Of a stretch of 64,000 bases of DNA, positions 49,291 to 63,281 are shown one piece after another. Where the stretch lies: the IMG/VR virus record IMGVR_UViG_3300042516_005631, positions 1 to 64,000 of that record; one strand, 5' to 3'. This stretch comes from a virus. A model generated the notes under the pieces. The model worked only from the letters and a program-made list of their open reading frames with translations, had not been told where the DNA came from and did no database searches. The number at the start of each line of letters is the position of its first letter. The stretch's first letter is position 1. A program made the position numbers and the translations under genes.

Positions 49291-49321
49291 CAAATATACA
49301 AACCAAAAATCAAGTAACCAA
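49291..49321 (-). promoter_or_regulatory. Host-type promoter-like site (TTG-N20-TATATTTG)
   Basis: Matches the Bacteroidota -33 TTG / -7 TAnnTTTG consensus on the minus strand, upstream of the 82-residue gene. Confidence 0.6.
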
Positions 49322-51100: not shown

Positions 51101-51134
51101 AATATACGAACTTTATTTTAAATGAGGTAGTCCT
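51101..51134 (-). promoter_or_regulatory. Early promoter-like element copy 1
   Basis: AGGA, 20-base spacer, TTCGTATATT, then AAAGTATAAATAAA, upstream of the two 22-residue peptides. Confidence 0.75.
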
Positions 51135-51453
51135 AAGCTGCTACCTCATTACCATCGCTCTTAACTTGAGCTGGTCGTCCTCGTTTCAAAGTACCATTTG
51201 CTCTTTTACTCTCTAATTCAGCTAATCTCATTTGTCTTACTGAATTTGGATTTACAGGTCGTCCTTGGCCAATACCGTTTGCTTTATTCTCTGCTTGTTT
51301 AGCTAATCGAATTTGTCTTTCTGAATCAGCTACTACAGGTCGTCCTCGTTTCAACTCTCCACTATTTCTTTTTAATTCTAATTCTTTTAATCTTAATTGT
51401 CTTACACTGTTTTCATTTACAGGACGTCCTAATTTTTTTACTTCATTTTTCAT
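51133..51453 (-). CDS. AT-hook-like repeat DNA-binding protein
   Basis: A 106-residue protein built of about 3.5 repeats of GRPVNxNSxRQxRLxELExKRxxGxLKR. GRP triplets flanked by basic residues lie at 9, 37, 64 and 92, a regular period of 27-28 residues. GRP with flanking Lys/Arg is an AT-hook-like minor-groove motif, so binding of AT-rich DNA is likely. It could mark phage DNA or promoters. Start context AAAAGTTATG. Confidence 0.8.
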   Translation of the reverse strand: MKNEVKKLGRPVNENSVRQLRLKELELKRNSGELKRGRPVVADSERQIRLAKQAENKANGIGQGRPVNPNSVRQMRLAELESKRANGTLKRGRPAQVKSDGNEVAA

Positions 51454-51503
51454 AACTTTTTTCTTTTTAAATTTAACTTATTTTCTTAACTTATTTATAC
51501 TGT

Positions 51504-51537
51504 AATATACGAATTACATTTTAATTAACTTAGTCCT
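51504..51537 (-). promoter_or_regulatory. Early promoter-like element copy 2
   Basis: AGGA box overlaps the end of the 49-residue gene; TTCGTATATTACAGTATAA; precedes the AT-hook gene. Confidence 0.75.
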
Positions 51538-51679
51538 GAATTAACATTTTACTAATAAATTCTAAACACTCATCTTTATTATTAAAACTAAATCTATTTC
51601 CATTTTCATCATTAAAAAACCACCCTACTCTTTCATCAAATTTAACTAATATTCCTCTATAAACAAACATATTATTCAT
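51530..51679 (-). CDS. Unknown 49-residue early protein
   Basis: MNNMFVYRGILVKFDERVGW... is a small beta-alpha protein with no motif. Standard early unit: promoter, short leader, gene. Confidence 0.65.
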   Translation of the reverse strand: MNNMFVYRGILVKFDERVGWFFNDENGNRFSFNNKDECLEFISKMLIQD

Positions 51680-51703
51680 CTTTTATTTTTTTAATTATAC
51701 ATC

Positions 51704-51737
51704 AATATACGAATTACTTATTAAATTAACTCTTCCT
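51704..51737 (-). promoter_or_regulatory. Early promoter-like element copy 3
   Basis: AGGA, 20-base spacer, TTCGTATATTGATGTATAA; precedes the 49-residue gene. Confidence 0.75.
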
Positions 51738-52047
51738 GTTTTAAAGCAAATTGTTTCAATTCTTCTAGTTTATTATTTAATAATTCAATCATTTCAAGTT
51801 CACTTCCTCCAAAATAAAATACTCTACTCTTCATTCCTGGTACTTTCATTTCAAAACAATTATACAATCCTTTAGCTAATCCTCTTCTAAGCATATCAGC
51901 ATACTTCTTATTTGCTTCCCCTCCTTTACTCTTTCTATAATAACCAAATACTTCCTTTTGAATTTGTCCTTCAGTAGCTATAACTGTTAAATCTAAAAAT
52001 TCTACTATTTGCTTTACACTGTTTTGTTTTCTTCCTTTAAACCCCAT
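51721..52047 (-). CDS. Unknown 108-residue early protein, winged-helix-like
   Basis: Basic N-terminus (MGFKGRKQNSVKQIVEFLD) followed by helices and YADMLRRGLAKG. The ordering of helix, loop and basic strand would suit a winged-helix DNA-binding fold, but this is not certain. Confidence 0.68.
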   Translation of the reverse strand: MGFKGRKQNSVKQIVEFLDLTVIATEGQIQKEVFGYYRKSKGGEANKKYADMLRRGLAKGLYNCFEMKVPGMKSRVFYFGGSELEMIELLNNKLEELKQFALKQEELI

Positions 52048-52073
52048 TTTCTTATCTTTTTTAATTATACTTC

Positions 52074-52107
52074 AATATACGAATTATTTATTAATTAATT
52101 TAGTCCT
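52074..52107 (-). promoter_or_regulatory. Early promoter-like element copy 4
   Basis: AGGA, spacer, TTCGTATATTGAAGTATAA; precedes the 108-residue gene. Confidence 0.75.
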
Positions 52108-52214
52108 TTAATTTCTAAATAAAATACTTACAATTTTCTCATCTTCAACATTCAATTCTTTCACATCTAAAGTTTGATAAAAGAATGTATCTTCATCTAA
52201 GTCATTATCACTTA
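52108..52214 (-). pseudogene. Remnant of an early gene without a start codon
   Basis: An open frame encoding about 33 residues (DNDLDEDTFFYQTLDVKE...) runs to a TAA but has no in-frame ATG. The only nearby ATG meets a stop two codons later. It directly abuts early promoter copy 5. It looks like a deletion that joined the promoter to the 3' part of a gene. Confidence 0.45.
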
Positions 52215-52248
52215 AATATACGATTCAATACTAAATTAATTTACTCCT
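52215..52248 (-). promoter_or_regulatory. Early promoter-like element copy 5 (variant)
   Basis: AGGA and spacing kept, box ATCGTATATT; leads only into the gene remnant. Confidence 0.6.
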
Positions 52249-52250
52249 AA

Positions 52251-52406
52251 TTAAAACCCAATTAAATCAATTGCTATTTCTCCTGTACTTTTACCATTAT
52301 AGGTAATCTCATAATTTGGGTCCATCCCGGAAATCATAATATGGGCGATAAGATCCCCAATCGTTTTAAACTCTACCTCGTAATAATCACAATTTAAACT
52401 ATACAT
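52251..52406 (-). CDS. MYSLN-family early protein, copy 1
   Basis: A 51-residue protein (MYSLNCDYYEVEFKTIGDLI...) sharing M-D-P-N-Y-E-I-T and a common end with the copy at 54301-54456. Unknown function. Confidence 0.75.
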   Translation of the reverse strand: MYSLNCDYYEVEFKTIGDLIAHIMISGMDPNYEITYNGKSTGEIAIDLIGF

Positions 52407-52432
52407 AATTTATCATTTTTTAATTATACTTT

Positions 52433-52466
52433 AATATACGAATTATTTATTAATTTTACTATTCCT
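52433..52466 (-). promoter_or_regulatory. Early promoter-like element copy 6
   Basis: AGGA, spacer, TTCGTATATTAAAGTATAA; precedes MYSLN copy 1. Confidence 0.75.
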
Positions 52467-52469
52467 AAC

Positions 52470-52670
52470 TCAACAAAACTTATCTAATAAACCCTTATTC
52501 TCTAATTTAATTAAACAATTATTAACATTATAAGGATTCTTTCTTTTATAATTTTTCAACTCATCATTTACTAAATCCAAAAACTCCTTTTCATCATCCT
52601 CACTTACAAAATCAACTTCATCATATTCATTAATAAACAAATTTAACTCTTTAATACTTTCAAATTTCAT
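52470..52670 (-). CDS. Unknown 66-residue early protein
   Basis: Acidic N-terminal helix, lysine-rich end. No motif. Confidence 0.65.
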   Translation of the reverse strand: MKFESIKELNLFINEYDEVDFVSEDDEKEFLDLVNDELKNYKRKNPYNVNNCLIKLENKGLLDKFC

Positions 52671-52694
52671 ATCTTATCTTTTTAATTATACTGA

Positions 52695-52728
52695 AATATA
52701 CGAACTTAATTTTAACTCTGTTATTCCT
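52695..52728 (-). promoter_or_regulatory. Early promoter-like element copy 7
   Basis: AGGA, spacer, TTCGTATATTTCAGTATAA; precedes the 66-residue gene. Confidence 0.75.
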
Positions 52729-52921
52729 ATTTTAAATTAATAATTAAATCAAATAATAAATCCTCTAAACTATCATCACCCTTCCAACCTCTCTTATACA
52801 AATAATACTCCTTTACATCTTCTAAAGTTTCTAATTTATCAATATCTTTTTTTACCTCTAAAGCAAAATCCTCAAAACTCACTTCACATTCAAATTCAAA
52901 TACTTTTTCTGTTAATGTCAT
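52727..52921 (-). CDS. Unknown 64-residue acidic early protein
   Basis: Rich in Glu and Asp (FECEVSFEDFALEVKKDID...), helical. No motif. Confidence 0.65.
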   Translation of the reverse strand: MTLTEKVFEFECEVSFEDFALEVKKDIDKLETLEDVKEYYLYKRGWKGDDSLEDLLFDLIINLK

Positions 52922-52945
52922 CTTTTATTTTTTTAATTATACATC

Positions 52946-52979
52946 AATATACGAATCTTAATTTAATTAACTTAGTCCT
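52946..52979 (-). promoter_or_regulatory. Early promoter-like element copy 8
   Basis: AGGA, spacer, TTCGTATATTGATGTATAA; precedes the 64-residue gene. Confidence 0.75.
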
Positions 52980-52982
52980 GAA

Positions 52983-53186
52983 TTAACTAAATGATTCAAT
53001 CAAATCAGTTGCAATGTAAACGTCTCTACAAATCAATTCTTCAAATGAAAATACCCCTACTGTACCAAATGCTAATTTTACTTGTGCGTCCCATAATTTG
53101 TAATTTGTAGTACGCTTTAAACGCTGTTCAATACCTTTTAATTTAATCGTTAATTCTAATTTTTCTTTGTTGCTTAATCTGCTCAT
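52983..53186 (-). CDS. Unknown 67-residue early protein
   Basis: Lysine-rich helix followed by an alpha/beta part. No motif. Confidence 0.65.
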   Translation of the reverse strand: MSRLSNKEKLELTIKLKGIEQRLKRTTNYKLWDAQVKLAFGTVGVFSFEELICRDVYIATDLIESFS

Positions 53187-53208
53187 ATGTCTTTTTTAAT
53201 TATACCTG

Positions 53209-53242
53209 AATATACGAATTATATTTTTACTCTACTATTCCT
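53209..53242 (-). promoter_or_regulatory. Early promoter-like element copy 9
   Basis: AGGA box in the end of the 37-residue membrane gene; TTCGTATATTCAGGTATAA; precedes the 67-residue gene. Confidence 0.75.
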
Positions 53243-53340
53243 AAAATTAAACTTAATATATATAAAACAATTAAAGGCATTGCAATTGGGAATACTACTT
53301 TACCAAATAAATCATTTAAACCCTTGTTTCTCTTTTTCAT
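53227..53340 (-). CDS. 37-residue membrane protein
   Basis: MKKRNKGLNDLFGKVVFPIAMPLI... has one membrane helix after a basic start. Three bases from the 41-residue gene upstream, so probably co-expressed. Confidence 0.6.
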   Translation of the reverse strand: MKKRNKGLNDLFGKVVFPIAMPLIVLYILSLILGIVE

Positions 53341-53343
53341 ATC

Positions 53344-53469
53344 TTAATTCCATCTAATTACACAATCATCAAATTCTAGTATTTCTAATAGGTTTGAATT
53401 TAAAATAATTCCAACAGCCATCTCTTGTTTGATTAATAATCTCAATAATTTAATTTCTGCTTTTGTCAT
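53344..53469 (-). CDS. 41-residue early protein
   Basis: Amphipathic helix (MTKAEIKLLRLLIKQEM...) and short C-terminus. Unknown function. Confidence 0.58.
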   Translation of the reverse strand: MTKAEIKLLRLLIKQEMAVGIILNSNLLEILEFDDCVIRWN

Positions 53470-53493
53470 AACGTTTCTTTTTAATTATACTTT

Positions 53494-53527
53494 AATATAC
53501 GAATCAATTTTTAAAGACACTAGTCCT
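53494..53527 (-). promoter_or_regulatory. Early promoter-like element copy 10
   Basis: AGGA, spacer, TTCGTATATTAAAGTATAA; precedes the 41-residue gene and borders the non-coding block. Confidence 0.75.
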
Positions 53528-53841
53528 TAATTAAGCAGTAAGGTGGCCTGCAATTTATTGCAAGCTTTTCTTTTATTTTAACAAACGTTCCATCACAGGT
53601 CATTCTGATGGGCTTATCCTGGGTATGTTTTGTTGTAGGAGAACATCCAAACTCATTCATTTACCAACACGAATACGCTATTTTCCGCCATGTTTTGTAG
53701 GTCCTGGGGATATTTCTGTGTCCTAATGCTGTTGCTATCCGTTACCCGTTTCCATTATGGAGAATACATTGTATTCAGTAATACATATGTGAAGGTAATG
53801 CCTTTTTATTGCTTTTCCAACTATTTTTTTAATTTCTTTTA

Positions 53842-53870
53842 CCCCCCTCTCCCCCAAGGGGGACGGGGGA
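53842..53870. repeat. C/G-tract inverted repeat
   Basis: Two stacked C5/G5 stems around a 2-base loop (CCCCC-TCT-CCCCC against GGGGG-AC-GGGGG). Similar repeats are common in intergenic DNA of Bacteroidota. Confidence 0.6.
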
Positions 53871-54010
53871 GTCGCATTTTTTGTATATATTTTTGGAAAG
53901 AACGTAAAGGGGACGTGGCGATGTGGGGAAGGGTTAGACCCTAACATTCCCTAACACACCCTTAGTGACCTATATTTTCCACATACTATTTTAATTAATT
54001 TTCATTTCAT

Positions 54011-54284
54011 TTGATAATTGACGTTTTGTGGTGATTGACATCCTTTCGGTAATTTCTGTTATTTATTGACGTTTTTCGTTCCGTGACGATTTTCATTGGT
54101 AATTTTTATTTTATGATAATTTCCGTTTTGTGGTGATTTTCATTGACGATTTTCATTCCCCATGTTGATTTTCATTCCACATAAACTAATCTAAACATTA
54201 GTTTAGCTTACATGTTAATTTCTATTCCTTGCGTTTATCTGTTGGTGATTTCTATCTTTGACGATTTCCTTGATAATTGACGTT
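54011..54284. repeat. Iteron-like array
   Basis: TTGATAATTGACGTT occurs perfectly at both ends (54011, 54270). CGTTTTGTGGTGATT occurs twice (54022, 54124), TGACGATTTTCATT twice (54084, 54144) and GATTTTCATT four times. TGACG[T/A]T occurs six times. Consistent with protein-binding iterons. Confidence 0.65.
54183..54204. repeat. Perfect hairpin inside the iteron array
   Basis: AAACTAAT and ATTAGTTT, 8-bp stem, 6-base spacer. Confidence 0.6.
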
Positions 54285-54300
54285 CCTCGTTTTATACACG

Positions 54301-54456
54301 TTAAAATCCAATTAATTCAATTAACATTTCCCCTGTTAATTTTCCATTTCTAGTTATTTCATAATTAGGATCCATTCCTACTTGCATCGCATAATTAATC
54401 AATTCATCTATTGAACTAAACTCCTCTACAAAATAATTACAATTTAAACTATACAT
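54301..54456 (-). CDS. MYSLN-family early protein, copy 2
   Basis: A 51-residue protein (MYSLNCNYFVEEFSSIDELI...), diverged paralogue of the gene at 52251-52406 with M-D-P-N-Y-E-I-T and L-I-G-F end retained. The two copies are separated by other genes and the non-coding block. Confidence 0.75.
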   Translation of the reverse strand: MYSLNCNYFVEEFSSIDELINYAMQVGMDPNYEITRNGKLTGEMLIELIGF

Positions 54457-54482
54457 TTTTTTCTTTTTTTATTTATATCCTG

Positions 54483-54516
54483 AATATACGATCTCTATTT
54501 TATGTTTCTTAGTCCT
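54483..54516 (-). promoter_or_regulatory. Early promoter-like element copy 11 (variant)
   Basis: AGGA and spacing kept, box ATCGTATATT, then CAGGATATAA; precedes MYSLN copy 2. Confidence 0.65.
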
Positions 54517-54709
54517 CTAAATCTTCTATAAATTTAGTTTTGGTAAGTATTTCTGTTCCCCATTCAATGTCATCATCCACTTCCTCACCTTCACCACGTT
54601 CTTCTCCTTCTATTATTTTCAATTCTGCTTCTTCTTGTGAATTAGCTTCAACAATATATTGTATTGTTTTAGTTGATTTTACTTCTGTTGTAATTCTAAA
54701 TACTTTCAT
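54509..54709 (-). CDS. Small acidic early protein, paralogue A
   Basis: A 66-residue protein with FRITTEVKSTKTIQYIVEAN and DIEWGTEIL. It is similar in plan to the gene at 54947-55135. Unknown function. Confidence 0.72.
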   Translation of the reverse strand: MKVFRITTEVKSTKTIQYIVEANSQEEAELKIIEGEERGEGEEVDDDIEWGTEILTKTKFIEDLED

Positions 54710-54718
54710 TTTTTTTTC

Positions 54719-54898
54719 TTAATTATATCGTTGCATAATAATATCAGCAAATGCATAAAACTGATCAAAATCATCCTCTCTCATTAATGTTACTGCACTT
54801 TGAAATTCTAATATAAATGCTTCTCGTTTTGGTGAATTATCAACCAATTCAATATCATCTGCTAAGTGTTCAATTTGTTCAAACATTTTTTCTTTCAT
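54719..54898 (-). CDS. Unknown 59-residue early protein
   Basis: MKEKMFEQIEHLADDIELV... is helical and acidic. Between the paralogue pair. Start context AAAAGTTATG. Probably co-transcribed with paralogue A from copy 12. Confidence 0.65.
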   Translation of the reverse strand: MKEKMFEQIEHLADDIELVDNSPKREAFILEFQSAVTLMREDDFDQFYAFADIIMQRYN

Positions 54899-54926
54899 AA
54901 CTTTTTTCTCTCTTTATTTATACCGT

Positions 54927-54960
54927 AATATACGAAATTTATTTTACTAATCTATTTCCT
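54927..54960 (-). promoter_or_regulatory. Early promoter-like element copy 12
   Basis: AGGA, spacer, TTCGTATATTACGGTATAA; precedes the 59-residue gene. Confidence 0.75.
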
Positions 54961-55135
54961 CTTCTACAGTAATTACTTCACTTCCCCAATCATATTGTTC
55001 ATCAAATGTTATTCCATCACATCGGTGTTCTCCGTTTTGTAATTGTTCAAGTGCTTCCTCTAGTGAATCCGCTTCAATAAGATATTCTATTGTTGCTTTT
55101 ACTTGTACCTCTGTTTCAAATCTGAATTGTCCCAT
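54947..55135 (-). CDS. Small acidic early protein, paralogue B
   Basis: A 62-residue protein with FETEVQVKATIEYLIEADSL and YDWGSEVITVEEE. The two proteins share a (F/I)xTEV...(Y)xI/VEA(D/N)S...EEA core, evidence of duplication. Confidence 0.72.
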   Translation of the reverse strand: MGQFRFETEVQVKATIEYLIEADSLEEALEQLQNGEHRCDGITFDEQYDWGSEVITVEEEID

Positions 55136-55136
55136 T

Positions 55137-55433
55137 TTATCTACTTGTTACTGATTCGATTACTTCTGTTCCTGAATTGATCATTGCTATTACTCCACCC
55201 CACATATTTTCATCTGCTTCCCATTCTACTTCGTGTTTTGCATGTTTCATTTGCCAATTACTTATTGAAAATCCCATTCCATCTATTTTAAAATCACCTT
55301 CACTATTTTTCTTAAATCTTAAATAATGAACATTATCACACATACATGATACTGTTTTGAATATGACCTCTCTAGCTCCTTCTTTAATAGTTAATTTAGG
55401 TTGGTTTAATCTTAATTCTCTGTATTTACTCAT
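55137..55433 (-). CDS. Unknown 98-residue early protein
   Basis: Beta-rich, with MCDNVHYLRFKKN and WQMKHAKHEVEWEADENMWGG. No named family. Directly upstream of paralogue B and probably co-transcribed. Confidence 0.68.
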   Translation of the reverse strand: MSKYRELRLNQPKLTIKEGAREVIFKTVSCMCDNVHYLRFKKNSEGDFKIDGMGFSISNWQMKHAKHEVEWEADENMWGGVIAMINSGTEVIESVTSR

Positions 55434-55467
55434 AACTTTTTATTTTTTCTTTTTTTATTTATACTGT

Positions 55468-55501
55468 AATATACGAACTTTATTTTAAATCTCTATTTCC
55501 C
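55468..55501 (-). promoter_or_regulatory. Early promoter-like element copy 13
   Basis: GGGA instead of AGGA at the usual distance; TTCGTATATTACAGTATAA; precedes the 98-residue gene. Confidence 0.65.
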
Positions 55502-55663
55502 TAAAATTTCATCTAAATTTTCTTTAATATATTCCTTTACATCACTATACTCAAATCCATCATTTAACATTTGATCTGCTATTTCATTAATAGCTGTTGT
55601 TAATTGTACTGCTGATTCGAATGTTAATAGATTTTCAATTCGTTCTCTTTTTTCAAAATTCAT
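55493..55663 (-). CDS. Unknown 56-residue early protein
   Basis: MNFEKRERIENLLTFESAVQ... is helical and acidic. No motif. Confidence 0.63.
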   Translation of the reverse strand: MNFEKRERIENLLTFESAVQLTTAINEIADQMLNDGFEYSDVKEYIKENLDEILGK

Positions 55664-55685
55664 GTCTTTCTTTTTTATTTACTGA

Positions 55686-55719
55686 AATATACGAAAGCCC
55701 CTTTAATTTGGGGCTTCCT
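55686..55719 (-). promoter_or_regulatory. Early promoter-like element copy 14 with hairpin in spacer
   Basis: AGGA-AGCCCC...GGGGCT-TTCGTATATT: a hairpin fills the spacer and a T-run merges with the box. It may end the upstream gene and start the 56-residue gene. Confidence 0.72.
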
Positions 55720-55739
55720 TTACTAAATTTTATTTTAAT

Positions 55740-56087
55740 TTATTCCTCTGTTGAATTTTCATCTTCAATGTCATCTTCTTCCTCAACCATAAATTCATCA
55801 AGTACTGCATTTACATGTTCCATTATTTCATAAACATTAACATCTATATCAGTTACTCGAATAGTATTATTGTAATCTAATTCCAATTCTACACTATCTA
55901 GATCAACTAAACCACGACTATTATTATCCATTACTAACTCAATTTTGTTAGATATTTTATCTACTAGTTTTGGGGTAAGTCCTCCTGTCTCAATTTGTTT
56001 AATCAATTCAATTACTTTATCAATATCAACTGTTGATGATAATACTTTTGCTGTTTCTAGTTGTTCAATTAAATGTTCTTTTTTCAT
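55740..56087 (-). CDS. Unknown 115-residue acidic early protein
   Basis: Helical with an alternating Leu/Val/Asp middle and an acidic tail. No motif. Followed by the hairpin-containing promoter copy 14. Confidence 0.65.
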   Translation of the reverse strand: MKKEHLIEQLETAKVLSSTVDIDKVIELIKQIETGGLTPKLVDKISNKIELVMDNNSRGLVDLDSVELELDYNNTIRVTDIDVNVYEIMEHVNAVLDEFMVEEEDDIEDENSTEE

Positions 56088-56113
56088 ATCTTTTTCTTTT
56101 TTTATTTGAGTGA

Positions 56114-56147
56114 AATATACGAAAGCCCTTTTAAATAAGGGCTTCCT
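56114..56147 (-). promoter_or_regulatory. Early promoter-like element copy 15 with hairpin in spacer
   Basis: AGGA-AGCCC...GGGCT-TTCGTATATTTCAC; precedes the 115-residue gene. Confidence 0.72.
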
Positions 56148-56373
56148 TTTTTGTTTTCTCTACTATAAAAGAAATTGCTCTTTGGTTTTCTGGTAATGTA
56201 TTATCTGGTTTAATTCCCAAATCTTCCATTAACCCGTTTATTTTAGCCCAATCTGATACTGAACGTAGTGTAATGTTATTATCTTTTCCAAATAGACTTT
56301 CATCTACTTTAATTTGTAAAAATAATTCTGCTTCTTTTTGTTGAATTACTTCAATCATTTGTTTTTTTGTCAT
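56131..56373 (-). CDS. Unknown 80-residue early protein
   Basis: N-terminal helix (MTKKQMIEVIQQKEAELF) and alpha/beta remainder. Start context AAAGGTTATG. Confidence 0.65.
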   Translation of the reverse strand: MTKKQMIEVIQQKEAELFLQIKVDESLFGKDNNITLRSVSDWAKINGLMEDLGIKPDNTLPENQRAISFIVEKTKKEALI

Positions 56374-56389
56374 AACCTTTATTTTCTTT

Positions 56390-56423
56390 AATATACGAAC
56401 TTAAATTGGATAACCTATGTCCC
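56390..56423 (-). promoter_or_regulatory. Early promoter-like element copy 16
   Basis: GGGA at the usual distance; TTCGTATATTAAAG; precedes the 80-residue gene. Confidence 0.6.
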
Positions 56424-56484
56424 TTGCTCCAAAATCTAGCTCTTCCATTTGAGCTAGTATTGCTAATGCTTCCTCGTCACTCAT
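56401..56484 (-). CDS. 27-residue acidic peptide
   Basis: MSDEEALAILAQMEELDFG... starts at an ATG overlapping the upstream stop (ATGA). Probably translated with that gene. Confidence 0.5.
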   Translation of the reverse strand: MSDEEALAILAQMEELDFGARDIGYPI

Positions 56485-56660
56485 TTGTTTAGTTTCATTT
56501 TTAACTTTAAATCACTAATTGTCATTTCAACAAAACCAGCAGTCATTATTGGTGTTTTTCCACTTTGCTCTACTTTTTCAATTTCAGCGATCATATCTGC
56601 TTGTACTTTGTCTAATCCATCATTGATTAGAAACTTCTCAAAACCATTTAATTTGCTCAT
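56481..56660 (-). CDS. Unknown 59-residue early protein
   Basis: MSKLNGFEKFLINDGLDKVQ... followed by helices. Its stop overlaps the start of the 27-residue gene. No motif. Confidence 0.65.
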   Translation of the reverse strand: MSKLNGFEKFLINDGLDKVQADMIAEIEKVEQSGKTPIMTAGFVEMTISDLKLKMKLNK

Positions 56661-56690
56661 AACTTTTATTTCTTTTTTTATTTATACTGT

Positions 56691-56724
56691 AATATACGAA
56701 ATTTCTATTAAATCTCCTATGCCC
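56691..56724 (-). promoter_or_regulatory. Early promoter-like element copy 17 (weak upstream box)
   Basis: TTCGTATATTACAGTATAA is intact, but the upstream box is GGGC. Precedes the 59-residue gene. Confidence 0.6.
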
Positions 56725-56947
56725 TCATTACTAAATTTAAGGGCACATTAAAACCGTCCGGATCAATTACAGGTACAAATTCACCTTCATCTTCATCCAT
56801 CACGTATTCAATATCTAACCAATCTGTAACATCACAATCTTCATTATTTATTACTAGTTTTGCTGCTTCACCACAATCTGAGAGTATAACACCATAACCA
56901 CAACAATTTGAATATGTGTAATAACCATGGATTTTTTCTTTTAACAT
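56717..56947 (-). CDS. Conserved phage protein, possible metal-binding
   Basis: A 76-residue protein with CCGYGVILSDCGEAA and WLDIEYVMDEDEG...VPVIDPDGFNVPLN, a widespread small phage family. Three Cys and acidic residues could bind metal. Unknown role. Confidence 0.78.
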   Translation of the reverse strand: MLKEKIHGYYTYSNCCGYGVILSDCGEAAKLVINNEDCDVTDWLDIEYVMDEDEGEFVPVIDPDGFNVPLNLVMRA

Positions 56948-56971
56948 AACCTTTATTTCTTTTTATACTTT

Positions 56972-57005
56972 AATATACGAAATCTATTTTAATCTTCTTC
57001 GTCCT
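56972..57005 (-). promoter_or_regulatory. Early promoter-like element copy 18
   Basis: AGGA, spacer, TTCGTATATTAAAGTATAA; precedes the 76-residue gene. Confidence 0.75.
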
Positions 57006-57366: not shown

Positions 57367-57385
57367 AATTTTCTTAATTTATTTT

Positions 57386-57419
57386 AATATACGAAATTTA
57401 TTTTAATAACCTTCGTCCT
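57386..57419 (-). promoter_or_regulatory. Early promoter-like element copy 19
   Basis: AGGA, spacer, TTCGTATATTAAAA; precedes the MSGGTFDY gene. Confidence 0.72.
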
Positions 57420-57810
57420 TTACTATCCAACCTTTATCAATCAAATGACCAATAAACCCTCTAAATTCAGCTATGCCTTGTTCATCTAACATTTCCTCTG
57501 CTTCCGGCATACTTTCAGGATTTCCTTCATAAACACCTATAAACCATCTAGGATTATCTGAATTATCTTTTTTCCAATCATCTCTATTTGCAGGGCGTTT
57601 ATCTGTTATTTCAACCCAGGAATCAGCATAAATATCTGTTAAATCTTTTGCTTCGTCTTTCAATATAACTGTTGCTTCAAAACACCATTCATCTGATTCC
57701 CAAGTACAACTTAAACTATTTGTAACATCTCTTGGTTTGATTTCCACTATTGGTAATGTAGATGTTTCTCTAACATACCATACTCCGTCTACTTGTATTC
57801 TATCTTTCAT
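57403..57810 (-). CDS. RIQVxGVWYVRET-family protein, copy 1
   Basis: A 135-residue protein with RIQVDGVWYVRET at the start and WESDEWCFEATVIL in the middle, related to the gene at 61454-61843 over most of its length. Unknown function; duplicated in this phage. Confidence 0.8.
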   Translation of the reverse strand: MKDRIQVDGVWYVRETSTLPIVEIKPRDVTNSLSCTWESDEWCFEATVILKDEAKDLTDIYADSWVEITDKRPANRDDWKKDNSDNPRWFIGVYEGNPESMPEAEEMLDEQGIAEFRGFIGHLIDKGWIVKDEGY

Positions 57811-57829
57811 TTTCTTTTTAATTTATTGG

Positions 57830-57863
57830 AATATACGAAAAGGGTATTAAATACCCTCTTCCT
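57830..57863 (-). promoter_or_regulatory. Early promoter-like element copy 20 with hairpin in spacer
   Basis: AGGA-AGAGGGTATTTAATACCCTT-TTCGTATATT: the GGGTAT/ATACCC stem fits the spacer; precedes RIQV copy 1. Confidence 0.72.
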
Positions 57864-58230
57864 CTAATTCTTCTACTAAAATATCTACTGTTGAACGTCC
57901 TAATTTATTTACTAACCAAATACCACCTATAGTTAAACAATAAATATATTCTATTCCACTTTCAAACCCATAATCAAACAAATCTGGTACATTTGGAAAT
58001 GTTTTGAAATGTAAATCTTCTCCTCTATCACGATGATATGCTATTGTCCATAAGATTGATTCCCCTAACGCTGAGATATCCCCTAGTTCCATTAGTTTTT
58101 CGGTTTTTTCTCTATCGTAGTGGTTAAATAATTTTTTACCTACTCCATCTAAATAACCATCAAAATGACAATAAATTGATGTTACTGTTCCGTCTTGATT
58201 TTCAATTGCTATTCTACTTCTTGTTGCCAT
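57847..58230 (-). CDS. Conserved phage protein (MATRSRIAIEN family)
   Basis: A 127-residue protein with MATRSRIAIENQDGTVTSIY and HFDGYLDGVGKKLFNHY, a frequent phage family with an alpha/beta fold. Function unknown. Confidence 0.83.
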   Translation of the reverse strand: MATRSRIAIENQDGTVTSIYCHFDGYLDGVGKKLFNHYDREKTEKLMELGDISALGESILWTIAYHRDRGEDLHFKTFPNVPDLFDYGFESGIEYIYCLTIGGIWLVNKLGRSTVDILVEELEEEGI

Positions 58231-58254
58231 AATTTTTCTCTTTATTTATACTGT

Positions 58255-58288
58255 AATATACGAAATTTCTTTAATATCTTCTATTCCT
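58255..58288 (-). promoter_or_regulatory. Early promoter-like element copy 21
   Basis: AGGA, spacer, TTCGTATATTACAGTATAA; precedes the MATRSRI gene. Confidence 0.75.
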
Positions 58289-58669
58289 CTATTTTTTATC
58301 AATTATCACTTCAACTTTAATTTCTCCATCTACAAAACGACTAACCTGAAAGTATTCTACTTCATCCATTGCTTTAATGTCTTTCTTTAATTTGTTTAAA
58401 GTTGTTTTATTTTTAATTGAGCCACAACTAAATGCAGGTGAATCAAAATACTTGATTCGATATGCTCCATACGGGTTTGTGTTTTTAACTATTTTCCAAT
58501 CATCATCAGTCAATAAGTCTAGTCTTTTATTTCTATCTTTAATTGTTGCTGAGTAGTGGTAGCCACAATTTTGGCAATTTACATATTGTTCTCCTGTTTT
58601 GTAATAGAAATCACTAAACGCTTCGTGTTCACAGTTTGGACACTCTATTTCATCTATAAAACTTCCCAT
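58289..58669 (-). CDS. Zinc-ribbon early protein
   Basis: A 126-residue protein with CPNC (10-13) and CQNC (33-36), an N-terminal zinc ribbon, and a lysine-rich alpha/beta C-terminal domain. Possible nucleic-acid binding. It is followed by copy 21. Confidence 0.75.
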   Translation of the reverse strand: MGSFIDEIECPNCEHEAFSDFYYKTGEQYVNCQNCGYHYSATIKDRNKRLDLLTDDDWKIVKNTNPYGAYRIKYFDSPAFSCGSIKNKTTLNKLKKDIKAMDEVEYFQVSRFVDGEIKVEVIIDKK

Positions 58670-58670
58670 T

Positions 58671-59243
58671 TTAATCTTCTCTTGTAATACTTTCTAAACC
58701 AAACAAATAAGCTAATACTGTTTCTTCCATTCCTTCATAACATGTAAGTTCCATTGATGTTAATATCTCAGCTACAGTTGATGAATTTTGTACCTTTTCA
58801 ATAGCTTTCATACAATGGTTAGTGTTAGTTTTGATTGTTTTAATAATATCTTCAATTTGATCTACTGTATCGTCGTCAATATCTTGTATTGACATTTTAA
58901 CATCTTGTAGCATATCAAATTCAAAATCTTCAATATGTCCTTCTAACATATTTATAACTCGTTGCTTACCTTCTTTAAAATTAAATTTCATAACTTTCTT
59001 ATTTTCTTCAAATATACGACCTTCTTTTTGCTGAGAAACTTCCTCTACTTTTGTAAATTGATGTTCAAAATAACCACCATCTGCTTGTTCACCTGATAAT
59101 TCATCTCGAATCCATTTTACAAAAACATATTCTTCATCATTCCATCCAATGTAATACTCTTCAACTATAGCTGTTGCTCCTTTTTTAGCTGCGTATGTAC
59201 CTTCTCCTTCAAATTCTACTATGTCTCCTTTTTTAAATTTCAT
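58671..59243 (-). CDS. Readthrough fusion of two early genes over a promoter
   Basis: A 190-residue frame. Residues 1-75 form an SH3-like module (KKGDIVEFEGEGTYAAKKGAT ... VKWIRDEL). Residues 76-84 (GRIFEENKK) are a translation of promoter element copy 22. Residue 85 is a Met with AAAGTTATG context that starts a complete 106-residue helical protein. The internal gene can be expressed alone from copy 22. Its stop is the only one for the upstream frame. The fusion may be made from the upstream start, or the first gene may have lost its stop codon. Confidence 0.7.
   Translation of the reverse strand: MKFKKGDIVEFEGEGTYAAKKGATAIVEEYYIGWNDEEYVFVKWIRDELSGEQADGGYFEHQFTKVEEVSQQKEGRIFEENKKVMKFNFKEGKQRVINMLEGHIEDFEFDMLQDVKMSIQDIDDDTVDQIEDIIKTIKTNTNHCMKAIEKVQNSSTVAEILTSMELTCYEGMEETVLAYLFGLESITRED
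59011..59044 (-). promoter_or_regulatory. Early promoter-like element copy 22 (inside a reading frame)
   Basis: AGGA box and 24-base distance kept; box GTCGTATATT; located between the two halves of the fusion frame. Confidence 0.7.
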
Positions 59244-59400
59244 CTTCTAATTTCTTTTTTATTCCATCCAATATCATATTTACCCCATCATATACTTCAT
59301 CAATTAGATAAAGGTTAGGATGGTATTCATCTATAAGTTCATTTAATTGAAATACAAATGCTTTTAATCGTTCTGGGTTGTTTTCTGCAAATTTATTCAT
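59233..59400 (-). CDS. Unknown 55-residue early protein
   Basis: MNKFAENNPERLKAFVFQLN... is helical. It overlaps the fusion gene by 11 bases. Start context AAAAGTTATG. Confidence 0.65.
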   Translation of the reverse strand: MNKFAENNPERLKAFVFQLNELIDEYHPNLYLIDEVYDGVNMILDGIKKKLEDEI

Positions 59401-59424
59401 AACTTTTATTTTTTTCTTACTTGA

Positions 59425-59458
59425 AATATACGAAAGGCTCTTTAATTAGAGCCTTCCT
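59425..59458 (-). promoter_or_regulatory. Early promoter-like element copy 23 with hairpin in spacer
   Basis: AGGA-AGGCTCTAATTAAAGAGCCT-TTCGTATATT; precedes the 55-residue gene and probably ends the 253-residue gene. Confidence 0.74.
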
Positions 59459-60203
59459 TTTTTACTTGTTTTGAAAATTTATCTAACAATTCCTCTGAAT
59501 TCATTTTCTCAAATTCAGCATCATATTTTTTATGAAGAATTTCTTTATTTTGATATGTGTTTAATGTAAGCTGAATGTAACTACCTGATTCAAATTTAAC
59601 TTCAATAACATCAAATGTACCACTATATCTTGAATAGTCACTTTTAACCGTTATTGTAGCATTTGGGTACAATTTTGTATACTTTTCAACTGTACTTAGT
59701 TTTAAACCGTTTTTCTTTTTATATTCCTCCAACAATTGTTCTTGACGGGAATTGTATGTTTTTAATTTTTCAAGTAATGTTGCAGGTTTAATGTAGCGAT
59801 AATTATCTTGAATAGTACTACAATTAACTTTATCTCTTTCAAATTCAATATTGAATGTAGAATCAACCAATTCATTTGGTTTTGAATATGTATCAAATTG
59901 TTTTCCTTTCAAAAAAATACCCCCACCAATTGCTTTATATGTTATTTCAGCTCTAAAATCAGTTTTGTTATAGGAATAACCTATTGTTGTTTCATTAGTA
60001 ACAGTTTCTACTTTAAATGTATTAACAAAATCAACATCTTTAACAAAACCATTGTTGATAAGCAATTGCTCGCGTTGTTTGTTTATACTCTCATTTGTAT
60101 TAGCAATATCTTCTCTAATTTTGATAAATTCTGCTATTTTTTGTTCTTGTTCAGGTGTAAATAATATACCATCAAATAAACTTAATTGAATTCCTTCTTT
60201 CAT
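59442..60203 (-). CDS. Early protein with sliding-clamp-binding motif
   Basis: A 253-residue protein opening MKEGIQLSLFDG. QLSLF at residues 6-10 matches the bacterial beta-clamp-binding consensus QL[SD]LF. Helical and beta regions follow without a recognised catalytic site. It might hijack or block the host clamp, or be loaded onto DNA through it. Start context GAAAGTTATG. Confidence 0.75.
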   Translation of the reverse strand: MKEGIQLSLFDGILFTPEQEQKIAEFIKIREDIANTNESINKQREQLLINNGFVKDVDFVNTFKVETVTNETTIGYSYNKTDFRAEITYKAIGGGIFLKGKQFDTYSKPNELVDSTFNIEFERDKVNCSTIQDNYRYIKPATLLEKLKTYNSRQEQLLEEYKKKNGLKLSTVEKYTKLYPNATITVKSDYSRYSGTFDVIEVKFESGSYIQLTLNTYQNKEILHKKYDAEFEKMNSEELLDKFSKQVKKEGSN

Positions 60204-60228
60204 AACTTTCTTTTTTTATTTATACTTT

Positions 60229-60262
60229 AATATACGAAATCTATTTTACTTTTCTTTGTCCT
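60229..60262 (-). promoter_or_regulatory. Early promoter-like element copy 24
   Basis: AGGA, spacer, TTCGTATATTAAAGTATAA; precedes the QLSLF gene. Confidence 0.75.
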
Positions 60263-60416
60263 TCATTAATTCTTCTCCAAAATCAGAATTTTTACACCAC
60301 AATTCCCACATTGCATTAAACCATGCTGGGCCATCTTCTTCATATGTTAGTCCTTCAACAGTTGCATGTGTGTTTCTAACCAAAAACGCTGTCCAATTTA
60401 ATAACCAAGGTTCCAT
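60246..60416 (-). CDS. Unknown 56-residue early protein
   Basis: MEPWLLNWTAFLVRNTHATV... is rich in Trp, acidic at the end. No family recognised. Confidence 0.65.
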   Translation of the reverse strand: MEPWLLNWTAFLVRNTHATVEGLTYEEDGPAWFNAMWELWCKNSDFGEELMKDKEK

Positions 60417-60436
60417 TTTCTTTTAATTTATACTTT

Positions 60437-60470
60437 AATATACGAAATCTCTTTTAAATTAACTATTCCT
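60437..60470 (-). promoter_or_regulatory. Early promoter-like element copy 25
   Basis: AGGA, spacer, TTCGTATATTAAAGTATAA; precedes the 56-residue gene. Confidence 0.75.
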
Positions 60471-60845
60471 TTTTGCTAATATCTTTTGATATTCTTCTTC
60501 ACATAAAGTTGTATACCAACCTATATCTGTTCTCAATTGTCCTGGTTTGCCTGTTACCTCGCATGTTTGGTAGCTTAAATCTTCTGCTTTGCTTATACGC
60601 GCATGCATTTCATCTGATGCTTCATTGATATAGAAGCGTAGACCACCAAATTTTTCCTTTATTTGGCATACTTCTTTGTTCCAACCCAATTCAATCAAAT
60701 CAGTGATAAGGTCTTTTATTAGTTGATACCAACCTGAATCGCATTCAAAGAATCCTGCATTCGTTATTGGTTCTCTATTTGAGTACATGCCATTTTCCAA
60801 CCCACCTATGGATTGTAGAAAATCGTTCATTTCTTGTTCTGTCAT
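60459..60845 (-). CDS. Conserved phage/bacterial protein
   Basis: A 128-residue protein with DSGWYQLIKDLITDL and VCQIKEKFGGLRFYI, the mark of a family seen in phages and some bacteria. Also contains a Cys pair near 95-115. Function unknown. It overlaps the next gene by 4 bases. Confidence 0.8.
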   Translation of the reverse strand: MTEQEMNDFLQSIGGLENGMYSNREPITNAGFFECDSGWYQLIKDLITDLIELGWNKEVCQIKEKFGGLRFYINEASDEMHARISKAEDLSYQTCEVTGKPGQLRTDIGWYTTLCEEEYQKILAKRNS

Positions 60846-61093
60846 AGTTGTTCTATTTCTTGTTTAACTTGTTGCCAACTCGTTAAAGAGCCTGCGATAA
60901 GGCCTTTAGCATGTGGGTGTAAATCTTCTGCTACTTCAAGTGATTCTTTTAAGTCTTTTAATATCTCATCTACTGCAATTAAAGCACATTGTTTAGCTGT
61001 TGGATGATAAATTATAGAATAGTCTGCTAACTTCTGTTTTCTTATGTTCATAAAAGCTTCAACTAGCTCTTCTGCTTTTTCTTTTGGTGTCAT
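60842..61093 (-). CDS. Conserved phage protein (MTPKEKAEELV family)
   Basis: An 83-residue product from the ATG at 61093. An upstream ATG would overlap the neighbour by 38 bases and is unlikely. Contains AKQCALIAVDEIL, which recurs in Bacteroidota phages. Function unknown. Confidence 0.8.
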   Translation of the reverse strand: MTPKEKAEELVEAFMNIRKQKLADYSIIYHPTAKQCALIAVDEILKDLKESLEVAEDLHPHAKGLIAGSLTSWQQVKQEIEQL

Positions 61094-61094
61094 T

Positions 61095-61403
61095 TTATTC
61101 TGGTTCTTGGTATAATCCTGCTGATTCATCATCTTTCATCATTTGAATCAATTTTGATTCCCTAACATATTTTCGAATTAAAGCAATAATTACTTTAGGT
61201 TCCTCAGCAAATTTTATTTTATCATCATTTTTAATTCCAAACCAAGCAATGTTGAAACCATGATTTGCTGTAAAATCTTCTGATTTAATTCGAATACCAT
61301 TTACTTTATCTAAGTAGATCCATGGATAATTTCCAACCAATTCTATTTCGATACCACAACGTCTTAATCGTTTAACTAAAATTGAAATTACGTCTTCTCC
61401 CAT
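61095..61403 (-). CDS. Conserved phage protein
   Basis: A 102-residue protein with IEIELVGNYPWIYLDKVNGIRI (18-39) and ANHGFNIAWF, a small alpha/beta family frequent in Bacteroidota phages. First gene of a three-gene unit with short spacings. Confidence 0.8.
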   Translation of the reverse strand: MGEDVISILVKRLRRCGIEIELVGNYPWIYLDKVNGIRIKSEDFTANHGFNIAWFGIKNDDKIKFAEEPKVIIALIRKYVRESKLIQMMKDDESAGLYQEPE

Positions 61404-61419
61404 TTTTTTAATTTAATTT

Positions 61420-61453
61420 AATATACGAAAGCTCTCTTACGAGAACTAGTCCT
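61420..61453 (-). promoter_or_regulatory. Early promoter-like element copy 26 with hairpin in spacer
   Basis: AGGACTAG, TCTC/GAGA stem, then TTCGTATATTAAA; precedes the 102-residue gene. Confidence 0.7.
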
Positions 61454-61843
61454 TTATTTTGTTAACCAACCAATACTATTCAAATATAAAAGAAATGCTT
61501 TAAATTCCTCTAAACCTTGTTTATCAAACATTTCTCTTGCATCAATCATTGAATCAGGATTATCTTCTAACACACCAAACATAAAGTTCGGATTATCAAC
61601 ATCATCTTCAACCCAATCTTTTCTATCTGCAGGACGTTTATCTGTTATTTTAATGTATGGGTCCGGGTAATGATCATCTAATGTTTCTGCTCCATCTAAC
61701 ATAATCACAGTTGCAACAAAACACCAGTCGTTTGATTCCCAAATACGTTCCATACTGAATGTAATATCTTTTTCTTTTATTTCAGGTGTTGGGTTAGTTT
61801 CTCTAACATACCATACACCGTTTACTTGAATTCTTTCTTCCAT
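61454..61843 (-). CDS. RIQVxGVWYVRET-family protein, copy 2
   Basis: A 129-residue paralogue of the gene at 57403-57810. Matching segments include RIQVNGVWYVRET, WESNDWCFVATVIM and ITDKRPADRKDW. One base separates it from the next gene. Confidence 0.8.
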   Translation of the reverse strand: MEERIQVNGVWYVRETNPTPEIKEKDITFSMERIWESNDWCFVATVIMLDGAETLDDHYPDPYIKITDKRPADRKDWVEDDVDNPNFMFGVLEDNPDSMIDAREMFDKQGLEEFKAFLLYLNSIGWLTK

Positions 61844-61844
61844 A

Positions 61845-62201
61845 TCATTTATTTTCAGTTATTTCAATTAACTTTTTAAGACAAGCAAATTCTGCTTCTT
61901 CATAGGTGGTAAAATTTTCAAATCCATGTTCATTATTTCCTAAATCTTCCCATCCACTACAAAAACCATCACCACTAAAGTTAATAAAATTACATAATTG
62001 ATACTTCTCTCTAAACCATCTAAATGCTTGTTGGTATAGTGGTGCTGATGTAAATCCTCTTCTTGAGTAGTTAGGGGATGTATTTTTCATGTTGTCTAAA
62101 ACAAATTCATTTTCAACCCCATAGTATCCAAAACAAGGTTCATCAAATCCAAGTTGCTTCATCTTTAAAGCTAACTCATAAGGTACAAATTCTTTTTCCA
62201 T
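61845..62201 (-). CDS. Conserved Bacteroidota-phage protein
   Basis: A 118-residue protein starting MEKEFVPYELALKMKQLGFD and containing QQAFRWFREKYQL, a well-known small family of Bacteroidota phages and prophages. Function unknown. Confidence 0.85.
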   Translation of the reverse strand: MEKEFVPYELALKMKQLGFDEPCFGYYGVENEFVLDNMKNTSPNYSRRGFTSAPLYQQAFRWFREKYQLCNFINFSGDGFCSGWEDLGNNEHGFENFTTYEEAEFACLKKLIEITENK

Positions 62202-62217
62202 TCTCTTAATTTTCTCA

Positions 62218-62251
62218 AATATACGAAATTTTTACTTTAAAACCTATTCCT
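62218..62251 (-). promoter_or_regulatory. Early promoter-like element copy 27
   Basis: AGGA, spacer, TTCGTATATTTGAG; precedes the 118-residue gene. Confidence 0.72.
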
Positions 62252-62506
62252 TTACTTTAATATAAAATACATTGACAACAAAGCACCTATTGTATAACCT
62301 AAAGAACTAGCCAATGCTAAAAAAAACCTACCTTTCCATGTTTTTTCATCTGCAACAAAACCAGCAAATGGTAAAGCAATAAACGGACCTACAAATGCCC
62401 AAAACATTGTGCTTGTAATGCTTTTATCTGCTACTGAGCTGATGTACATTGTACTTCCAACTTCTAAAATTAGAGCTGATATAGAAATGATTAAATACCT
62501 ATTCAT
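62252..62506 (-). CDS. Membrane protein with three hydrophobic segments
   Basis: An 84-residue product from the ATG at 62506, overlapping the upstream stop codon by 8 bases. Hydrophobic segments at about 4-17, 30-48 and 58-80. An upstream ATG would add a long polar stretch within the neighbour's gene. Confidence 0.65.
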   Translation of the reverse strand: MNRYLIISISALILEVGSTMYISSVADKSITSTMFWAFVGPFIALPFAGFVADEKTWKGRFFLALASSLGYTIGALLSMYFILK

Positions 62507-62732
62507 GGTAATTAAAGCAAACAGCCATATATGTTGGTACATAAAACATTTGTCCTGCACATTCATTATATTTTGTATGTTCTTCGTGTGGCAGGACTTC
62601 AAAGTATGACTTTTCCTCGTCATACGAAATTAGACGTGCTTTCATAGTTGGAGAGATGTTGGTAAATGTTACTCTACCAACTGCCTCTCTAATATGGTTA
62701 AGAGTTTTAACACGTTGTGTTACTTGTCTCAT
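62499..62732 (-). CDS. Unknown 77-residue early protein
   Basis: Basic N-terminus and beta-rich middle (VGRVTFTNISPTMKARLISYD...). Overlaps genes on both sides by 4-8 bases. Confidence 0.68.
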   Translation of the reverse strand: MRQVTQRVKTLNHIREAVGRVTFTNISPTMKARLISYDEEKSYFEVLPHEEHTKYNECAGQMFYVPTYMAVCFNYHE

Positions 62733-62932
62733 TTTTTCATTCTATAAACTATAAATGCAATCAAAAGAGCTGTTCCTGCAATCAGTATAGCTGCTGAAAT
62801 TGGTATCCAAAGCGGGGCTGTAACCCACCACCAACTCCAAGTAATATGACCTGTTAATTTTAAAGTCATAAATATAAGGAATAGTATCATACCAATTCCA
62901 ATTCCGTTTGTGTTTGTTTTTTTATCGCTCAT
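62729..62932 (-). CDS. Two-helix membrane protein
   Basis: A 67-residue protein with membrane helices at about 11-29 and 38-61 and a Trp-rich centre (WSWWWVTAPLWIP), a recurrent small phage protein. Overlaps the 77-residue gene by 4 bases. Confidence 0.72.
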   Translation of the reverse strand: MSDKKTNTNGIGIGMILFLIFMTLKLTGHITWSWWWVTAPLWIPISAAILIAGTALLIAFIVYRMKK

Positions 62933-63068
62933 TTATATATTTTTCTGTTATTTTAATTTGACGCTCTAATATGTCTATATACTTGTCACGTGATTCAATG
63001 TCTTTCTTTAAAATTTCAATTATTTCCTGTTGAATCTCAATTATTTTCTCTAGTTGTTTTCTCTTCAT
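62922..63068 (-). CDS. 48-residue coiled-coil protein
   Basis: MKRKQLEKIIEIQQEIIEIL... is a single coiled coil. It overlaps the membrane gene by 11 bases and the next gene by 32. Confidence 0.6.
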   Translation of the reverse strand: MKRKQLEKIIEIQQEIIEILKKDIESRDKYIDILERQIKITEKYINER

Positions 63069-63225
63069 TTTTATTTTCTTTAGATTCTTTTATTTCAGCA
63101 TAAATTATAGCATAAACAATTGTTAGAATAAATAGAAATAGTGTTTCTACTGTGAAAAAATAAAGCCCTGCTACTATAGCGGCTAATACTAAAAGTGTTG
63201 TTGTTGTTTGTAAATGTGTATTCAT
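63037..63225 (-). CDS. Small membrane protein
   Basis: A 62-residue protein with two hydrophobic segments (about 9-25 and 28-45) and a charged tail. First gene of the run behind promoter copy 28. Confidence 0.65.
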   Translation of the reverse strand: MNTHLQTTTTLLVLAAIVAGLYFFTVETLFLFILTIVYAIIYAEIKESKENKNEEKTTRENN

Positions 63226-63247
63226 TTTCTTTTTTTTAATTTATGTT

Positions 63248-63281
63248 AATATACGAAATTTCTTTTGCTCATAAACGTCCT
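63248..63281 (-). promoter_or_regulatory. Early promoter-like element copy 28
   Basis: AGGA, spacer, TTCGTATATTAAC; directly follows the tRNA terminator and precedes the membrane gene. Confidence 0.72.

Follow-up and report, generated by a model that had tools for sequence, protein, structure and literature searches.

The DNA analysed here (hereafter the window) is a stretch of 64,000 nucleotides, bases 1-64000 of the 95,454-base IMG/VR virus record IMGVR_UViG_3300042516_005631, from a phage in which portal, terminase and clamp-loader families are recognised. Within positions 51101-63281 we located all 28 copies of a bipartite, promoter-like element, AGGA-N20-TTCGTATATT, which an initial annotation had claimed for this region, every one of them on the minus strand and in the sense of the genes (Table 1). 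The counts of the upstream box were recovered as claimed, with AGGA in 25 of the 28 copies, GGGA in two and GGGC in one, and so were the ATCG (copies 5 and 11) and GTCG (copy 22) variants of the downstream box. Exact copies number 22 in the window and 27 in the whole record, all on a single strand, and the reversed pattern is absent; with the named variants the record holds 33 copies, five of which lie beyond the window at 64.9-67.2 kb, the series reaching 67196.

Such a series is far from what chance would provide. When at most one mismatch is allowed, 27 of the 28 copies are recovered against 0.03 expected in the window under a first-order Markov model; at up to three mismatches there are 46 matches on both strands of the window against a mean of 12.4 in shuffles, and matches with three mismatches are at chance level. 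Considering the whole record, 31 of the 33 copies precede the ATG of an open reading frame (ORF) of at least 30 codons, the distance from the first T of TATATT to this ATG being 22-56 nt. A role of AGGA as a Shine-Dalgarno sequence is excluded, as it lies far upstream of the start codons and at a fixed distance from TATATT. The two canonical sites reported near 49.3 and 50.4 kb were also confirmed, reading TTG-N20-TATATTTG and TTG-N20-TATATTTC. Copy 22 is enclosed by an open frame of 190 aa (58671-59243), as if two genes had fused through an intergenic promoter.

Table 1. Promoter-like elements and candidate protein genes, in window coordinates
Feature	Position	Strand	Remark
Copy 1, AGGA-N20-TTCGTATATT	51101..51134	-	30-codon ORF absent downstream
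Copy 2	51504..51537	-	ahead of AT-hook-like repeat gene, ATG at +56
Copy 3	51704..51737	-	motif match
Copy 4	52074..52107	-	immuto ortholog with TTG in place of AGGA
Copy 5, ATCG box	52215..52248	-	30-codon ORF absent downstream
Copy 6	52433..52466	-	motif match
Copy 7	52695..52728	-	motif match
Copy 8	52946..52979	-	motif match
Copy 9	53209..53242	-	motif match
Copy 10	53494..53527	-	motif match
Copy 11, ATCG box	54483..54516	-	motif match
Copy 12	54927..54960	-	motif match
Copy 13, GGGA	55468..55501	-	motif match
Copy 14	55686..55719	-	spacer hairpin, by eye
Copy 15	56114..56147	-	spacer hairpin, by eye; immuto ortholog with TTG in place of AGGA
Copy 16, GGGA	56390..56423	-	motif match
Copy 17, GGGC	56691..56724	-	motif match
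Copy 18	56972..57005	-	motif match
Copy 19	57386..57419	-	motif match
Copy 20	57830..57863	-	spacer hairpin, by eye
Copy 21	58255..58288	-	motif match
Copy 22, GTCG box	59011..59044	-	within an open frame
Copy 23	59425..59458	-	spacer hairpin, by eye
Copy 24	60229..60262	-	motif match
Copy 25	60437..60470	-	motif match
Copy 26	61420..61453	-	motif match
Copy 27	62218..62251	-	motif match
Copy 28	63248..63281	-	motif match
Canonical contrast promoter, TTG-N20-TATATTTG	49293..49321	-	sequence read
Canonical contrast promoter, TTG-N20-TATATT	50429..50457	-	sequence read
AT-hook-like repeat protein, 106 aa, RGRP/KLGRP cores	51133..51453	-	candidate linked factor, unproven
Sigma-70 region-2-like phage protein, 243 aa	45494..46225	-	occurs in AGGA and TTG phages

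The element and its TTG counterpart in related phages

Using a longer AGGA pattern, this extended form of the motif was matched in 97 IMG/VR stretches; 269 of the 530 AGGA-N20-TTCGTATATT copies found there fit the longer pattern, so that about half had not been selected directly. Across these stretches, which were not deduplicated, AGGA stands exactly 25 bases before TCG at 544 of 870 TCGTATATT sites, as against 29 or fewer at any other offset. Of the underlying records, 49 were searched whole, and while the presence of the motif in all 49 follows from how they were chosen, each carries between 1 and 25 copies, confined to one strand per record and with no match to the reversed pattern. On alignment of 506 unique sites, where AGGA and TCG-TATATT are fixed by selection and only the remaining positions are informative, we observed (A/C)TA after AGGA, (T/C)AAA at a distance of 14 to 11 bases ahead of TATATT, a T in front of TCG and AAGTATAA downstream of TATATT. 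Each AGGA phage has its AGGA sites grouped in one stretch, which in the linear record G026 falls at the two termini, and TTG sites lie mostly elsewhere.

By its portal protein, the closest isolated relative is Flavobacterium phage vB_FspM_immuto_2-6A (hereafter immuto), at 60% identity and with a portal annotated as T4-like Gp20; by DNA, no isolated relative was found in the phage collection. In the head and baseplate region, the two phages arrange their shared genes in largely the same way. This relation, together with the canonical TTG-N20-TATATT promoters of the window, points to a host that is probably a member of the Bacteroidota. Replication genes vary among sister phages (G010, G016 and immuto being compared with the AGGA phages): immuto carries annotated family A polymerases, and a search of it for the clamp-loader families seen in the AGGA phages was negative. 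Of two further phages, the Microcystis phage Mel-JY01 lacks the AGGA form, and the huge phage LR756508 gave no match to the core-plus-downstream pattern. Mel-JY01 (PP395634.1, L165-L168) has Bacteroidota-type TTG/TAnnTTTG matches, 29 on one strand and 10 on the other, and has portal and sigma-like proteins in common with this phage group; its stated host may deserve a check.

The small-gene region of immuto can be matched to that of the window by its neighbours, namely DUF932, an HD hydrolase and the sigma-like gene. Before many of its small genes lies TTG-N20-TATATT, with TTCG or a close variant ahead of TATATT and a similar AGGTAT/AAGTAT downstream. Thus the promoters of the two phages are alike in gene region, core type and downstream sequence, but immuto has TTG where the phage of the window has AGGA, and whole-record search of its 160 kb returned no exact AGGA copy. 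Among recognised cores genome-wide, TTG accompanies 28 of 32 in immuto and only 6 of 39 in the window's phage. The sequences thus show that the core TTCG-TATATT, which goes with TTG in the corresponding region of immuto, is kept and that the -33 TTG is exchanged for an AGGA abutting the -33 position upstream.

Ortholog pairs having a recognised promoter on both sides were also compared, with five AGGA phages set against five TTG phages. The 47 reciprocal-best pairs comprise 33 TTG/TTG, 8 AGGA/TTG, 1 AGGA/AGGA and 5 other combinations; the 8 AGGA/TTG pairs derive from 6 genes of 3 phages, with identities as low as 25%, and one of them, like the AGGA/AGGA pair, has poor cores and may be due to chance. 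Mixed records exist as well, with TTG in 27 of 44 cores of G010 and in 16 of 34 of G016, the latter containing composite AGGA-ATTTG sites that bear both elements. In some repeat-protein lineages without AGGA, inspection by eye of seven loci revealed other boxes, such as GGCAAA and GTCAAAA, roughly 16 to 10 bases before TATATT, and at L294, L305, L312 and L320, upstream of the sigma-like gene, such boxes replace TTG or AGGA. Taken at the level of sequence, these variants suggest lineage-specific promoter codes among related phages.

Comparison with host promoters

As host sample we used 395 genomes from the phylum of a Prevotella genome, among which the actual hosts of the AGGA phages may not be included. 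The AGGA form gave 6 matches in 5 genomes against 20 for the reversed pattern, so that no AGGA regulon was seen in these genomes, whereas TTG-N16-TTCGTATATTTG gave 23 matches in 18 genomes against 4 for its control; the TTG pattern ends in TG and is one fixed letter longer than the AGGA pattern, and the two are not exactly matched. The extended AGGA form had no match in a collection of 84,980 genomes. As the TTG form is enriched in the 395 genomes and the AGGA form is not, TTCG-TATATTTG with TTG is, judged by motif counts, a promoter of host type, whereas AGGA does not belong to the host elements of the sampled genomes. The earlier view of a class distinct from the TTG/TAnnTTTG pattern therefore stands as regards AGGA, but not as regards the downstream box, which is not foreign to the Bacteroidota.

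In published work, promoters of the Bacteroidota primary sigma factor (sigma-ABfr) are described with TTTG at -33 and TAnnTTTG at -7, with T at -12 (PMC7366714, PMC6847099), transcription starting 4-5 nt past the -7 element and the -33 element being weak in F. johnsoniae (PMC6847099). On this numbering AGGA would occupy -40 to -37, and the published distance would put the start where C vanishes from the leader, with which the composition is compatible. The AGGA elements resemble sigma-ABfr promoters in TA..TT at -7, the fixed distance, the A-rich leader and the use of such promoters by related phages in corresponding genes. They differ in that AGGA lies about 4 bases further upstream than the -33 TTG, that TTCG precedes TATATT and that the host T-6 G-5 is mostly missing, with G at -5 in 2% of the 482 AGGA sites and in 8% of the 111 TTG sites compared. 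A -33 TTTG is not generally retained, since just 26 of the 506 unique AGGA sites also have TTG at the tested positions; at -7, TATATT is present but served as the anchor of the comparison.

Recognition of the two-part element

In hundreds of copies the spacing stays the same while the spacer sequence varies; this, the position before genes and the replacement of TTG in related phages lead us to regard the AGGA elements as very likely a phage-specific promoter class that is read at two places. A single protein reading both boxes, as first supposed, is only partly borne out: the spacing supports the two-place reading, but the downstream box is shared with TTG promoters. That they act early is a presumption from gene content and synteny.

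The best explanation as a whole, to which we give a probability of about 0.55, is that host polymerase acts on the core and a phage factor on AGGA. The host RNA polymerase with its primary sigma would bind the core and melt the DNA there, with transcription starting about 7 nt past TATATT. Deprived of the -33 contact, the polymerase would be held by a phage DNA-binding factor at AGGA(A/C)TA, about -40 to -34, this factor either activating transcription or remodelling sigma region 4. A block of about 30 small genes could thereby come under the control of one phage protein, as with MotA/AsiA in T4 middle genes. Taken separately, reading of the core by the sigma-ABfr polymerase appears likely, and reading of AGGA by a phage-supplied factor is favoured somewhat less strongly; the leading candidate for this factor, still unproven, would be the AT-hook-like repeat protein discussed below. 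T4 middle promoters, in which the activator box lies near -30 and MotA and AsiA act, similarly keep a host -10-like box and replace the host -35 contact with a phage-read box. However, AGGA lies at about -40 to -37 and not at the -30 of T4, and none of 9 records, several of which are fragments, matched the MotA activation domain (PF09114); sigma region 4 (PF04545) was likewise found in 0 of 9.

Several points weigh against this explanation, including the missing MotA match just described and the discordant comparisons for the candidate factor reported below. The promoter reading is drawn from sequence, the reader of AGGA is still only a candidate and the 395 genomes may not include any host of an AGGA phage. 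Given the weak -33 element of F. johnsoniae (PMC6847099), loss of this element might by itself need no replacement. Moreover, the missing T-6 G-5 in the phage cores may mean that the polymerase is altered or different.

Among the alternatives, the host polymerase with its primary sigma might read AGGA by itself, by means of a contact with sigma region 4 or alpha, dispensing with a phage factor; AGGA and TTG-type promoters do have the same kind of core, and the poorly conserved -33 of F. johnsoniae (PMC6847099) is in keeping with it, but we consider it improbable in view of the missing enrichment of the AGGA form in Bacteroidota genomes and the lack of the extended form in the larger collection, although the hosts may be unsampled. 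Exploitation of a host alternative sigma of the extracytoplasmic function (ECF) type is clearly less probable still: the likeness of GGAA...TCGTA to ECF boxes (GGAA near -39 and CGTA) is superficial, the gap exceeding the spacing usual for ECF promoters by about 4 bases in a hand count on the motif against the ECF consensus, so that a GGAAC-type -35 at ECF spacing from a CGT-type -10 is not found, while the same core serves TTG-type promoters and no host regulon appears in the sampled genomes. The whole-genome control thus lends no support to a host ECF sigma or host regulon. Two AGGA matches in one Bacteroidota genome (G278) appear in context to be due to chance; one of them is followed by a gene that by eye resembles a cytochrome-assembly gene. 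That the repeat works as an RNA element or a terminator and is no promoter at all is scarcely credible. Perfect stems of at least 5 bp do occur in 58 of 428 unique spacers against 2.8 expected after shuffling, but the other 370 lack such a stem and still have both boxes fixed, and the core equals that of canonical promoters. In the hairpins inspected as examples, TTCG marks the end of the 3' arm and the conserved A's lie in the loop; such hairpins, including those of copies 14, 15, 20 and 23, are probably terminators of the upstream gene folded into the promoter.

An alternative sigma was the other possibility raised by the initial annotation beside a phage activator. Because the core is common to TTG-type promoters of related phages, an alternative sigma is less likely than host polymerase with a phage factor, which remains the likeliest reader of AGGA. 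A phage-encoded candidate would be the sigma-like protein of Table 1, directing polymerase to the entire AGGA/TATATT element, and we regard this role as unlikely, if slightly less so than recognition by the host enzyme unaided. Sigma70_r2 matched weakly (E up to 1) in 5 of 9 records, always short of the cut-off. In a Foldseek search with its structure model (mean predicted local distance difference test score 72.6, predicted template modelling score 0.44), 42 of the best 50 of 107 rows were sigma or polymerase-holoenzyme entries by title; however, no match reached E 0.001 and ranks 1-3 were cross-linking models of ribosomal protein and polymerase pairs. A sequence search of the PDB with the sigma-like profile gave no hit. 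The C-terminal helices of the model could form a DNA-binding domain, and AGGA-clade rows read Y(I/L)HEM where TTG-clade rows read YIRE, but the mixed phages G010 and G016 read YIREQ, so this change does not mark them. Furthermore, the protein is not restricted to AGGA phages: TTG-type sister phages carry it with an almost unchanged C-terminal segment and immuto has it too, and therefore its presence does not explain AGGA. By analogy with T4, a gp55-like late role is more natural for such a protein, which counts against its reading the AGGA element. The sigma-like gene adjoins baseplate genes, and its family is large in IMG/VR, with at least 600 stretches in each of three scans.

The repeat protein and possible lineage-specific promoter codes

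The gene for the repeat protein sits behind copy 2, and its repeats with RGRP/KLGRP cores can be read as AT-hook-like. Pfam gave no match to it, and for a relative a single AT-hook match that is not significant (E 3.9); tblastn of the protein against the phage collection returned nothing. Enough upstream sequence was available for 98 loci or genomes. The gene is present in 16 of the 17 of AGGA type, in none of the 33 of TTG type and in 12 of the 48 that show few recognisable cores; removal of two same-record duplicates left 14 of 15, 0 of 33 and 12 of 48. The one AGGA-type case lacking the gene is G007, a record that stops at the block. Correspondingly, TTG occurs in 35 of 206 promoters at 18 loci with the gene and in 142 of 199 at 29 loci without it, the counts at shifted spacing being 11 and 2.

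Phylogenetic pairing has little power here. Over 53 rows, which included loci whose upstream flank is too short to show the repeat gene, there were 1.4 concordant and 1.0 discordant pairs. With at least 8 kb upstream, a restriction chosen after the first result, 44 rows gave 23+18 concordant and 3 discordant, or 2.4 against 0.1 in 3 pairs; here the states of the window's own record, G026, G039, G004, G006, G010, G016 and immuto were set by hand, and counting G010 as non-TTG is generous, as 27 of its 44 cores have TTG. Under a uniform 50% rule, with the same-record duplicates L173 (G006) and L195 (G039) dropped, 42 rows gave 20+18 concordant and 4 discordant, or 2.0 against 0.1 in 3 pairs, which, like the two earlier pairings, is not significant. 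The discordant rows are L281, L299, L308 and G010. On searching 26 whole records, the repeat protein was detected in 7, including, weakly (E 3.9e-5), the TTG-type G447; it was not found in G446 (114 kb), which has few cores, in G462 (167 kb), a clear TTG-type record, or in G463 (162 kb). Since other small families (55137-55433, 64345-64680 and others) and the clamp-loader genes also track the AGGA clade, the repeat protein is a lead and not an identification, and its being the factor that reads AGGA is doubtful.

Some further observations concern other features. The frame at 58289-58669 has weak similarity to the restriction-alleviation protein Lar (E 2.5e-4, below the cut-off). At record positions 70266-72362 (L009:10266-12362) lies a 698-aa protein with a start that looks by eye like a signal peptide; it resembles a secreted Bacteroidota protein, and Pfam and NCBIfam gave no match to it. 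The motif TATTTATAA, which we take to resemble the T4 late promoter, is commoner on the sense strand (26 against 5 in G039, 24 against 10 in G004, 19 against 1 in G026, 23 against 5 in G006 and 9 against 6 in the window's own record) and is a possible late promoter candidate.

Takeover of promoters by phages is understood for the E. coli type of polymerase, from which Bacteroidota differ in primary sigma and promoters. In the titles and abstract beginnings listed by searches of the open-licence PMC library, neither a Bacteroidota phage activator nor this AGGA motif is described. As a tentative idea, with the odds against it, these phages might build private promoter codes by swapping one host element: the repeat protein would rewire -33 recognition and each lineage would have its own word, whether AGGA, GGCAAA/GTCAAAA-like boxes or, where the protein is absent, TTG. 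With one element differing and the rest nearly constant across corresponding genes of related phages, this group amounts to a natural mutagenesis experiment, and the reader of AGGA could supply an orthogonal promoter system for Bacteroidota.

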